Positions 996 to 46,378 of a stretch of DNA of 46,378 bases are shown piece after piece. Numbering within the stretch: the first letter of the stretch is position 1; the number at the start of each line of letters is the position of its first letter. The stretch is from Bifidobacteriaceae bacterium (GTDB taxonomy: Bacteria > Actinomycetota > Actinomycetes > Actinomycetales > WQXJ01): contig JAITFE010000012.1 of NCBI GenBank assembly GCA_031281585.1, forward strand, positions 1 to 46,378, in the 5' to 3' direction. The notes beneath the pieces are model-generated. The model made no database searches and had not been told where the DNA came from. It worked only from the letters and a program-made list of their open reading frames with translations. The position numbers and the translations under genes were made by a program.

Positions 996-1967
996 GTGGA
1001 CATTGAGGCGTTCGCCGCAGAGCGGGGGGCTGCGTGGGACCGGCTGCGCGCCCTGGCGGGCGAACGCAGGCTCACGGGCGCCCAGGCCGACGAACTGGTT
1101 TGGCTGTACGAACGGGTCGCCACCGACTTGTCGCAGTTGCGGTCCGAGGCCCCCGACCCGTCCTTGATCTCTGAGCTTTCGGCCCGCCTGGCGGACGCGC
1201 GGGCCAGGATCCTGGGCGCGCATGACACCTCCACCGGCGCCCTGCGCCGGTTCGTCGAGTTGACCATGCCGGAAGCCCTTTACCGCCTACGGTGGTGGGC
1301 GCTCGCCTGCACCGTCCTCAGCGTCGCGGTGGCCGTCGCCGCCGGCGTCTGGGTGGTGGTCCACCCGTCGGCGCTGGCGATCATGGGCACGCCCGAAGAG
1401 CAGGAGGAGTACGTCAACTCGGCCTTCGCCAACTACTACTCCGAATACGCGCACTCCAGCTTCGCCGCGTCGGTGTGGACCAACAACGCCCGGATCGCGG
1501 CGCTGTGCGTGGCGGGCGGCATCACCGGCATCTTCCCGGCGTTTGTGCTGTTCCAGAACGCAGTGTTGGTGGGCGCCACAGGCGGCATGATGGCGACCCA
1601 CGGCGCGGCGGGCGTCTTCTTCAGCCTCATCCTGCCTCACGGACTGCTGGAGCTGACCTGCGTTTTTGTCGCCGGAGCGGTGGGTCTGCGCCTGTTCTGG
1701 TCCTGGGTGGCGCCCGGCCTGAGGACGCGGGCGCAGTCGCTGGCGAACGAGGGCAAGGCGGCCGCTGCGGCTGTGGTGGCTCTCAGCGTGGCCCTGGCCG
1801 TCAGCGGCCTGGTCGAGGGCTTCGTGACGCCGTCCGCGCTGCCCAGCGGGGTCAAGATCGCCATCGGCGCGCTGGTTTTGGCCGCCTTCCTCGCCTACAT
1901 GCTGCTGGCCGGCCGCCGCGCGGCGGCCGTCTTGGCGGCGGAACGCGACTATTCGGCTCCCGTCTAG
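996..1967 (+). CDS. SpoIIM (stage II sporulation protein M) family membrane protein
   Basis: The 323-residue product has a soluble N-terminal helical region of about 90 residues, then several membrane segments (about 97-125, 165-190, 200-240, 255-275, 285-310). The pattern fits the SpoIIM/DUF95 family, including the polar-aromatic stretch between the first and second helices (NSAFANYYSEYAHSSF). In non-sporulating actinobacteria the family is common and its role is unknown, so the name should not be read as evidence of sporulation. The start is GTG 996, chosen because it follows a -10-like hexamer at leaderless spacing. Its 3' end overlaps the convergent DUF58 gene by 4 bp. Confidence 0.85.
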   Translation: MDIEAFAAERGAAWDRLRALAGERRLTGAQADELVWLYERVATDLSQLRSEAPDPSLISELSARLADARARILGAHDTSTGALRRFVELTMPEALYRLRWWALACTVLSVAVAVAAGVWVVVHPSALAIMGTPEEQEEYVNSAFANYYSEYAHSSFAASVWTNNARIAALCVAGGITGIFPAFVLFQNAVLVGATGGMMATHGAAGVFFSLILPHGLLELTCVFVAGAVGLRLFWSWVAPGLRTRAQSLANEGKAAAAAVVALSVALAVSGLVEGFVTPSALPSGVKIAIGALVLAAFLAYMLLAGRRAAAVLAAERDYSAPV

Positions 1968-3256
1968 AGCCGGCCGGCCGCCTTCAGCGCCAGGTAGCGG
2001 TCAGCCACGGCGGGGGCCAGTGCCTCCGGCAAACCGGCCACCAACTGCGCGCCCACCGCCCGCAACCGGGTCTCCATGGCCCCGACCGCCAACTCCCTCC
2101 GTTCGGCGGCGGCCGCGTCGAACACCGCGTCCACGTCCTGACGGCCCGCGAGCATTTCGGCCGTCTGCGGGTCCCGAACCGTGGCGATCATCACCACGTG
2201 GCGGCGCAGCAGCGTGTCCAAGACGGGCGTGAGGCCCACCTCGACCAGCGCCGGGTCGGTGCTGGTGATGAGCACCACCAATGCGCGCTGGCGGACCCGG
2301 GCGCGAATCTGCCCGGCGATCAGCGTCCAGTTCGCCTCCACCAGCGCGGGTTCCACCAGGGCGAGTTGGTTGGCCAGTTCGGCCAACGCGGCCGAGCCGA
2401 CAGCGGGCGCCATCCGCCCGCGCACCACCCTGTCCGCCGCCAGCAACTCAACCCGGTCGCCGCCGGCCGCCGCCAAGGCGCCCAGCAGCAGTGCCGCCTC
2501 GATCCCCGCGTCCAGCCTGGTCTGGTCGCCAACCCGCCCGGCCGCCCATCGGGAGGTGTCCAGGAAGATCAGCACCCGCCGGTCCCGTTCCGGCCGCCAC
2601 GTGCGCACCATGACGTGCTCCGCGCGCGCTGTGGCGCGCCAGTCGATCGACCGCACGTCGTCCCCCAGGGCGTAGTCCCGCAGCGAGTCGAACTCGGTGC
2701 CCTCGCCCCGCACCTGCGAGGCCGCCCGCCCGTCCAGGTCCCGCAGCCGGGCCAGACGCGACGGCAGGTGGCGCCGCGACCGGAACTCGGGCAGCACCCG
2801 CACCCGCCCCGGCACCGCCACCGACCGCTGCCGCCCGGCCAGTCCCAACGGCCCAAAGCTGCGCGTCGTCACCCGGTCGGCTTCGAAGTCGCCCCGCCGC
2901 CGTGGCCGCAAGACCACGTCCATGCGCCGAGCCTCGCCCGCCGGCACCGCCAGGTCCTGGATCTCCCGTTCCGCCCCCGCCGATGCCGTCCACGCGTCCC
3001 GCACTTTCAGCCGCGCCTTCCGCCCGCTTGAGTTGGCCACCGTCAGGGTCGAGGTGGCCATCTCCGTCAAGCGGACCGCGCCGATCGGCTCGCGCGTGAC
3101 ACGCAACGCCTTGGGACTGGCGGCCAACGCCAGGTCGGCCAACGCCAGCGCGACCACCATAGCCGTCCACGCCAGCACCAGGACGGGCGCGGGCGCGAGC
3201 ACGAGCGGGACAACGCCCAAAGCGAGCGCCGCGGGAAACCGCCAGGTGACCGCCAT
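1964..3256 (-). CDS. DUF58 domain-containing protein
   Basis: This 430-residue protein begins with two hydrophobic segments (about residues 7-40), then a beta-rich region, then the DUF58 signature [14 protein letters not shown] near residues 198-211. A von Willebrand A-like segment with a MIDAS-type LDTSRW follows near residue 232. DUF58 proteins are nearly always encoded next to MoxR AAA+ ATPases and are thought to be their membrane-anchored partners. Here the MoxR gene is 5 bp upstream in the same operon. It is the last gene of the minus-strand operon that starts at 7209 and converges on the SpoIIM-family gene. Confidence 0.9.
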
Positions 3257-3261
3257 GCCGG

Positions 3262-4274
<1,013 letters not shown>

Positions 4275-44817: not shown

Positions 44818-45996
44818 TCAGCGCTCGGAGCGGCGCTGGATGAAGGCGGCGATGCCGGGAACCGTGAAGGCGAGCCGTCCGCGTTCGGGCGCGTAGACGA
44901 GCCCCTTGGCGATCAGGGCGGCGCGGGTGGTGGAGAGTTGGCTGGGACTCTTGCCCATCCGCGCGCCGACTTGGCCGACAGCCACCGCGTCCACGCCCGG
45001 GTCGGGGCTGGACGCCGGAGGGAGCATGGCCTCGAGGAAGGTCCGTTCCGCCTTGGTCGCGCGTTCCCATCGGCTGGTGAAAAAGCCGTCGTCGAGTTCG
45101 GCCCAGCCGTCCTCGATGGCTTGGCGGGCGTCCGTCTGGTCGATCTCCGTGCCTTCGGCCAGCCGCCAGGCGTGATATCCGAAGGTTTGCAGAAAGAACG
45201 GGTAGCCCTGGGATTCGCCTGCGATGAGATCAAGGCCCGCGCTGTTGAAGCGGACGCCCAACCGCTCGGCCGGTTGTGCGAGGGCGGCCCGCGAGGACTC
45301 GTGGTCCAGTTTGTCCACCACCGTGTAGCTGAAACGCTCGGCGTAGGAGCGCACGGCGGCCAATTTGCCCCGAACGGACGGGAGGCCCGCGCCGACCAGA
45401 ATGAACGGCCACCCGCGTTGCGCGGCTCGGTGCTGGGCGGCGATCACAGCGCCGGTCACGGTAGGGTCAAGGTCCTGCAACTCGTCGATGAACAGAGCCA
45501 ATCCAGTTCCGTCTTTGGCCAAACGCGGCCCGAGCGTGTCCACCACGTCGAGCAACGCCAGTTCGAGGTCAACCGGTGATTGGCCGGGCTCATGGCGCCC
45601 GATCGCGATGCCGCCTCCCGTCAGCCCGGCGTTGAGCGAGAACGAGTCGATCGCTTTTACGGCTTCGGCGAAGCCCCGGCGCCGGACCACCTTGTGGCGG
45701 ACGCGCTCAAGTTCGCGGGCCAACCGCCGACCGGCCGATCCGAGCTCCGGGTCCGCGCCGGCCGCCTCGAGGTTCATGGTCTGCCAGTGAGCATCCTCGG
45801 CCCGCGCCTGAAACGCCTCGAGCAGCACGGTCTTGCCCACGCCGCGAAGGCCGAACAGAACCAAAGGACTTGAGGGCAGGCCGGTTGCGGACCTCGCCAT
45901 CATGGCTTCGAAGTCTGCCAGCTGCTTTTGACGACCGGCCAACTCCGGCGGCCGCAGGCCGGCGCCTGGGCTGAAAGGGTTGGAACGCTGGTCCAC
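44818..45996 (-). CDS. AAA+ ATPase of the Orc1/Cdc6-like type with C-terminal winged helix
   Basis: The 392-residue protein has an N-terminal RPPELAGRQKQLADFEAMM segment, Walker A GLRGVGKT (49-56), Walker B LALFIDELQDLD (about 166-177), and lid helices. The last 70 residues look like a winged helix (VDAVAVGQVGARMGKSPSQLSTTRAALIAKGLVYAPERGRLAFTVP). This is the layout of mobile-type AAA+ proteins related to Cdc6 found scattered in actinobacteria. Function is not known; DNA binding is likely. The GTG at 45996 lies 7 nt after TATACT, and a large palindrome covers the promoter. Self-regulation through this site is an inference. Confidence 0.8.
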   Translation of the reverse strand: MDQRSNPFSPGAGLRPPELAGRQKQLADFEAMMARSATGLPSSPLVLFGLRGVGKTVLLEAFQARAEDAHWQTMNLEAAGADPELGSAGRRLARELERVRHKVVRRRGFAEAVKAIDSFSLNAGLTGGGIAIGRHEPGQSPVDLELALLDVVDTLGPRLAKDGTGLALFIDELQDLDPTVTGAVIAAQHRAAQRGWPFILVGAGLPSVRGKLAAVRSYAERFSYTVVDKLDHESSRAALAQPAERLGVRFNSAGLDLIAGESQGYPFFLQTFGYHAWRLAEGTEIDQTDARQAIEDGWAELDDGFFTSRWERATKAERTFLEAMLPPASSPDPGVDAVAVGQVGARMGKSPSQLSTTRAALIAKGLVYAPERGRLAFTVPGIAAFIQRRSER

Positions 45997-46003
45997 AATG
46001 GCA

Positions 46004-46009
46004 AGTATA
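46004..46009 (-). promoter_or_regulatory. Probable -10 element of a leaderless transcript (AAA+ ATPase gene)
   Basis: On the minus strand this reads TATACT, a strong -10, ending 7 nt before the GTG at 45996. It overlaps the outer edge of the 59-bp palindrome. A -35 would lie around 46027-46033, in the inner arm and spacer. Confidence 0.6.
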
Positions 46010-46064
46010 GCGATCTATACCCGTGTATAGCAGAATCTCCTATACACGGGTATAAATCACTATA
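46006..46064. repeat. 59-bp near-perfect palindrome, probable operator
   Basis: Arms 46006-46030 and 46040-46064 are reverse complements at 23 of 25 positions, around a 9-bp spacer. The inner 15 bp of each arm, TATACCCGTGTATAG, are perfect, and each is itself a dyad (TATAC, 4 bp, GTATA). The site is far more A/T-rich than its surroundings. It covers the promoter of the AAA+ gene and the last codons of the MFS gene. Two dimer sites arranged symmetrically suggest cooperative repressor binding. Confidence 0.9.
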
Positions 46065-46378
46065 GATGTGCGGCCGGTGGCCGCCGCAGCCGCTCCGACC
46101 AGCGCGAACGCGGATCCGATGAACAGGGCCGGGCGGTAGCCCGTGCCGGCCACGGCGCCGGCCAGGGCCGGGCCGACAATCTGGCCCAAGGCGTAGCCGG
46201 CGGTCAGGATGGCGACCGCGCGCCCAGGGGCCAGGGCGCGGCCGGCCGCCATGGCCAAGGCCACCGCGCCCATGAAGGTCCCGCCGAACAGGACTGCGGC
46301 GGCGCCGGCCGCCCAGGGGCCCTCGGCCAGGGCGGGCAGGGCCATCCCGAGGGCCTGGATGGCCAAGGCGCAGGCCAG
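46040..46378 (-). CDS. MFS transporter, C-terminal part (YbfB/YjiJ-like), runs off the window
   Basis: The last 112 residues of a major facilitator protein are visible, with four membrane helices. The stretches TAGYALGQIVGPALAGAVAGT and YRPALFIGSAFALVGAAAAA resemble the YbfB/YjiJ branch. The 5' part lies beyond position 46378. The final residues (SIVIYTRV) and the stop codon are encoded by the right arm of the palindrome, so the original end of this gene may have been replaced when that sequence arrived. Substrate unknown. Confidence 0.7.
   Translation of the reverse strand: MACALAIQALGMALPALAEGPWAAGAAAVLFGGTFMGAVALAMAAGRALAPGRAVAILTAGYALGQIVGPALAGAVAGTGYRPALFIGSAFALVGAAAAATGRTSIVIYTRV

Follow-up and report, generated by a model that had tools for sequence, protein, structure and literature searches.

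In Streptomyces, BldC binds direct repeats at promoters as cooperative head-to-tail multimers of varying number, with 9 bp per subunit (PMC5859096). In mycobacteria, IniR combines an SSO1545-like ATPase domain with a DNA-binding domain and is reported to bind and activate a promoter (PMC5760070). The window analyzed here, the whole 46,378-nucleotide stretch of contig JAITFE010000012.1 from a Bifidobacteriaceae bacterium, carries a gene for a stand-alone ATPase with a predicted winged helix. Such “ATP-binding protein” genes are common, and no assigned function was found for them. The promoter region of this gene contains an operator-like array (Table 1).

The array is a 59-bp palindrome with 52 of 59 positions symmetric and its arms paired at 26 of 29; when all centers in the window were scanned, the runner-up reached only 21 of 29. 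An inverted-repeat search returned the same arms (46006-46034 and 46036-46064, 29 nt each, 90% complementary, 1 nt between them), of which the 25-bp arms with 23 matches and a 9-bp spacer described in an earlier, sequence-only reading are a slightly shorter version. Six spaced TATA half-sites with steps of 10-10-15-10-10 bp are the better and simplest description of this palindrome. The two dimer sites first proposed are replaced by six half-sites at intervals of one helical turn, an architecture common to homologues, and the 15-bp core, rightly called a dyad in itself, consists of two neighboring half-sites 10 bp apart and is self-symmetric because TATA is its own complement. The array is A/T rich and unlike its surroundings, as had been noted, with a G+C content of 37% versus 69% for the window, and 6 of the 14 TATA words of the 46-kb window fall inside it. 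The palindrome is real and far beyond chance. The pattern TATA-N6-TATA-N6-TATA has two exact occurrences, both in the array, while 100 dinucleotide shuffles of the whole window gave no match even with 2 mismatches; elsewhere in the 3.98-Mb genome the pattern is absent, again allowing 2 mismatches.

Table 1. Features of the array and of the flanking genes in the window
Feature	Positions	Strand	Basis or location
Operator-like array: 59-bp palindrome, six TATA half-sites	46006..46064		Repeat search, symmetry scan, genome search, shuffles
Half-site 1, TATA	46006..46009		-13..-10 from ATPase start; overlaps -10 box
Half-site 2, TATA	46016..46019		-23..-20 from ATPase start
Half-site 3, TATA	46026..46029		-33..-30 from ATPase start
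Half-site 4, TATA	46041..46044		-48..-45 from ATPase start; beyond 15-bp central step where orientation turns
Half-site 5, TATA	46051..46054		-58..-55 from ATPase start
Half-site 6, TATA	46061..46064		-68..-65 from ATPase start
Predicted -10 hexamer TATACT	46004..46009	-	7 nt before GTG start
ATPase gene, 392 aa, AAA_16 (PF13191), C-terminal winged helix	44818..45996	-	Profile match, homologue alignment, structure model
MFS_4 transporter gene, 3' end	46040..46378	-	Runs off contig; last codons inside array

The ATPase gene reads leftwards from a GTG at 45996, a start that agrees with the family N terminus MDxxxNPYxPGAG. Relative to this start, the array extends from the predicted -10 box out to -68, and thereby overlaps the predicted promoter of its putative binder's own gene; the overlap with the -10 element claimed earlier is provided by half-site 1. 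A -10 box ~7 nt before the start codon is usual for leaderless actinobacterial mRNAs, and since TATACT lies at this distance from the GTG, the ATPase mRNA is likely leaderless.

Consistently with the earlier reading, the array also supplies the final residues of the upstream MFS gene (IYTRV-stop, stop at 46040). MFS relatives have unrelated C-terminal residues at the corresponding end, which would be consistent with an insertion at the array. The proposal that the array arrived together with the ATPase gene gains indirect support from arrays that accompany the gene on unrelated plasmids and from an array found with a decayed ATPase (see below), while for this particular insertion the MFS comparison is only suggestive. 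The 39 MFS codons at the window end (46262-46378) are repeated at 100% in G000:C29 (29041-29157), and judging from this identity the MFS gene probably continues in contig C29.

The ATPase matches AAA_16 with 53.7 bits (cut-off 32.6), and its Walker A (GLRGVGKT) and Walker B (LFIDELQD) motifs are invariant save one V/A position in Walker A. The best structural matches of an AlphaFold model built from 13 sequences (pLDDT 79.8) are PABY2304 (2qen, Z 21.6) and SSO1545 (2fna, Z 20.5), aligned over 311-314 residues (model residues 13-388, winged helix included) at 14-16% identity, followed by archaeal Orc proteins, plant NLRs, and Apaf-like proteins. By this predicted fold, the ATPase is SSO1545/PABY2304-like (STAND/Orc-like) with a C-terminal winged helix; the winged helix that the sequence-only reading had assigned to the product is thus present in the model and covered by the 2qen/2fna alignment. 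The Orc1/Cdc6 family model TIGR02928 scored 16.0 bits, far under its cut-off of 181.3, and a sequence search of solved structures (PDB) gave no close relative. Among known defense families no match was convincing, the best PADLOC hit scoring 20.4 bits across 52 residues, and no relatives were found in the viral contigs searched. One “phage” record carries a homologue, the record being an unverified 5.9-kb scaffold from fecal samples.

Upstream DNA was collected for 125 distinct genes, the window's gene and 124 homologues. An initial set of 69 upstreams had 167 5-mer self-matches at lag 10 against 11.0 expected (z 36), with z values of 27 at lag 20, 12 at lag 30, and 0.8 at lag 11. The enlarged set was split into 83 genes at at least 36% identity and 41 more distant ones, and the lag-10 peak was found in both (z 19.5 and 25.8, respectively), with further repeat peaks at lags 9 and 18 in the distant homologues; 83 other upstreams from the same DNA, serving as controls, showed no lag-10 peak (z 1.0). 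In the closer group (group A), TA-TA spacings of 10 and 12 bp are the most enriched (z 20.5 and 24.8) and those of 11 bp are depleted. Across 84 genes of this group the TAs cluster before the start at about -12/-13, -24, -36/-38, -46/-48, and -58. Individual upstreams tend to repeat words of their own; examples are TGATACGACC-TGAAGTAATC in G016, AAATTTACG in G010, AATCTATG in G013, a palindrome of about 80 bp in Mycobacteroides chelonae, and CTATGGTGTCGTCTAGCG in G187, where it forms a perfect inverted pair. The architecture, as read from these upstreams, is common to homologues and the word is not. The same 15-bp core, which the sequence-only reading had suggested looking for, is absent upstream of homologous ATPase genes, which have the spacing in common instead, and it has no second copy in the genome.

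At the level of single genes, a best-palindrome or best-direct-repeat test alone picked out 43% of homologues at p<=0.02. A combined score, whose spacings were chosen after most of these genes had been seen, identified 65% of homologues at p<=0.05 versus 10% of controls, and about a third of homologues miss this level. Fourteen plasmid loci, many of them from other phyla, were analyzed later, and 8 of these scored at p<=0.05. Among ten orthologues of one genus-level group, mean pairwise identity is 0.76 at -70..-1 versus 0.30 at -110..-71, so that in that group conservation stops at the array edge and is near background beyond -70. A conserved word, GCGACACGCC, lies just outside the array at about -70 in several group A families (e.g., L043, L087, and L108). 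Some homologues (L058 and L034) have, besides the repeats nearer the start, another array further out, at about 100-170 bp upstream.

Two paralogues in the same genome have different words, TTATAAACCGCGCAAAA in two copies at C107 and CGAACCGATACGAACCGATGCG at C100, each with a full match only at its own gene. The two C107 copies are 18 bp apart and not significant in the 10-bp score, so members differ in spacing. G010 has one additional array copy, immediately ahead of a decayed version of the same ATPase in which a C-terminal stretch is kept, which means that the array can be duplicated together with its gene; this second array copy is at about 3640-3830 on the minus strand of G010:C12 (L203), and the remnant reads DVSPTDRAYVSAMAQDEGPSRTSEIADRLGF. 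In G016:C207 (L202, 936-3760), the order is the ATPase, a second ATPase, which we take to be AAA_14/DUF4143-like, and then a second copy of the first ATPase's array, with a similar GGGCGGCATCGGGCACCGCCGATGCCGTCC stretch at both ends. Extra array copies were considered as regulon targets and rejected as such, the G010 copy preceding a decayed remnant and the G016 copy lying beyond the neighboring gene in a repeated flank. Array similarity is correlated with protein similarity (rho 0.41, compared with 0.15-0.19 for DNA further upstream). A winged-helix-specific codivergence with the array was likewise rejected, the partial correlations for the ATPase domain and the winged helix being 0.11 and 0.10; the reading domain is not singled out, because array similarity tracks both equally closely.

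Many of the homologues are on plasmids and others are chromosomal. Plasmid homologues from Pseudomonadota and Chlamydiota show the pattern too, with arrays present at those of Sphingobium, Rhizobium, Pandoraea, and Protochlamydia. A Vibrio sp. HDW18 plasmid (L199) has a solo homologue among short genes (DUF3709, DUF3024) that look like integron cassettes, and a plasmid labeled Bacillus subtilis DK01 (L197) has, in the stretch 1550-3901, a distant homologue directly after an AbiEii-type nucleotidyltransferase gene.

The sequences by themselves establish the array with its spacing, position, and privacy, as well as the conserved architecture and a link to the gene that holds across phyla. The ATPase is the economical candidate for the binder, given that the array moves with the gene and that paralogues use different words. 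We consider it probable that the array is the ATPase gene's private autoregulatory operator, to which several ATPase winged helices bind, most likely repressing. Half-sites one helical turn (10 bp) apart would place a protein multimer along one DNA face, most likely several adjacent ATPase molecules that contact the DNA by their C-terminal winged helices, and the 15-bp center, where the orientation turns, would make two three-subunit arms face each other. Such a multimer, covering the promoter between the -10 box and -68, would exclude RNA polymerase and keep the gene's own level low. The ATPase may oligomerize perhaps in one nucleotide state, and nucleotide state or another signal could exert control. 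Placement over the promoter suggests repression, with activation the less likely alternative; the self-repression originally put forward is still the best model.

An operator bound by another protein, a host regulator or a nucleoid protein, with the ATPase merely the regulated gene, is unlikely. Nucleoid proteins may be drawn to A+T-rich, phased TA steps, which may also bend DNA, and the array-protein correlation is no stronger for the winged helix than for the ATPase domain, both in keeping with such a binder; a shared host binder, however, would favor a shared word, whereas paralogue words differ, and each is confined to the gene it belongs to, with a further occurrence at a decayed copy in G010. 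It is unlikely that a host protein reads all these different words, and the design is met again on plasmids from other phyla.

Somewhat less probable still is that the array is where the ATPase assembles for its actual function, as an origin-like, centromere-like, or transfer site, with secondary effects on the promoter. Phased short repeats are typical of sites of this kind, many homologues are plasmid borne, and the nearest folds include Orc1/Cdc6 initiators, although the match to that family is far below threshold. On annotated plasmid stretches, however, the ATPase gene is mostly alone, without a replication or partition partner (ParA/ParB-like neighbors are seen in Pandoraea only); homologues are chromosomal too, and the array lies over a promoter.

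We regard as quite improbable an RNA hairpin at the end of the MFS mRNA or in the leader of the ATPase mRNA. Folding of this strand is very favorable (-54.8 kcal/mol, z -8.3), but there is no terminator-like T run, a search for intrinsic terminators (G+C-rich stem plus T run) found 0, and the array has no Rfam match. Among homologue upstreams, just 16% reach a folding z below -3, and arrays made of direct repeats do not form a structure, so the feature in common is the DNA spacing and not a stem. A nonregulatory mobile-element end or target site, though in line with an array that is unlike its surroundings and supplies MFS codons and with homologues on plasmids, is the least credible account, since there is no second copy at the gene's other end or elsewhere in the genome and arrays hold preferred distances to the start codon.

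If the array is indeed the ATPase gene's own operator, gene-private promoter arrays would give these ATPases a first activity that can be tested, namely binding to specific DNA sequences as a phased multimer. They would also provide a natural set of protein-operator pairs for studying specificity divergence, and make the ATPases candidate orthogonal regulators. It is tempting, if still tentative, to propose a widespread group of horizontally moving, stand-alone STAND/Orc-like ATPases in Actinomycetota, Pseudomonadota, and Chlamydiota, each of which may read its own fast-diverging, helically phased array; diversification of the words would insulate paralogues in one cell, and the ATPase would assemble on its array into an ordered oligomer acting as an autorepressing, nucleotide-gated switch.

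To our knowledge, gene-private phased arrays are known for neither BldC nor IniR, and a literature search of open-access papers found no published description of such arrays. The archaeal ATPases SSO1545 and PABY2304 (2fna, 2qen) are the best structural matches of the model, yet share only 14-16% identity with it, and the same kind of search found no report of operators for them. Archaeal Orc1/Cdc6 proteins likewise have an AAA+ domain plus a winged helix, but Orc structures rank after SSO1545/PABY2304, the family model reaches 16.0 of 181.3 bits, and the array here lies over a predicted promoter rather than a demonstrated origin. IniR resembles the present case as an SSO1545-like ATPase with a DNA-binding domain that regulates a promoter in an actinobacterium; it differs in having 818 aa and a MalT-like sensor domain and in activating another operon, and the excerpts of its description mention no repeat array at its own gene (PMC5760070). 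BldC is the nearest working parallel, a winged-helix-type protein on direct repeats of about one helical turn at promoters. It is, however, a 68-residue MerR-like protein with several targets, whereas the putative binder here is a 392-aa AAA_16 (AAA+/STAND) ATPase, the array words of which vary by gene, those tested being confined to their own gene or to a decayed or repeated copy.
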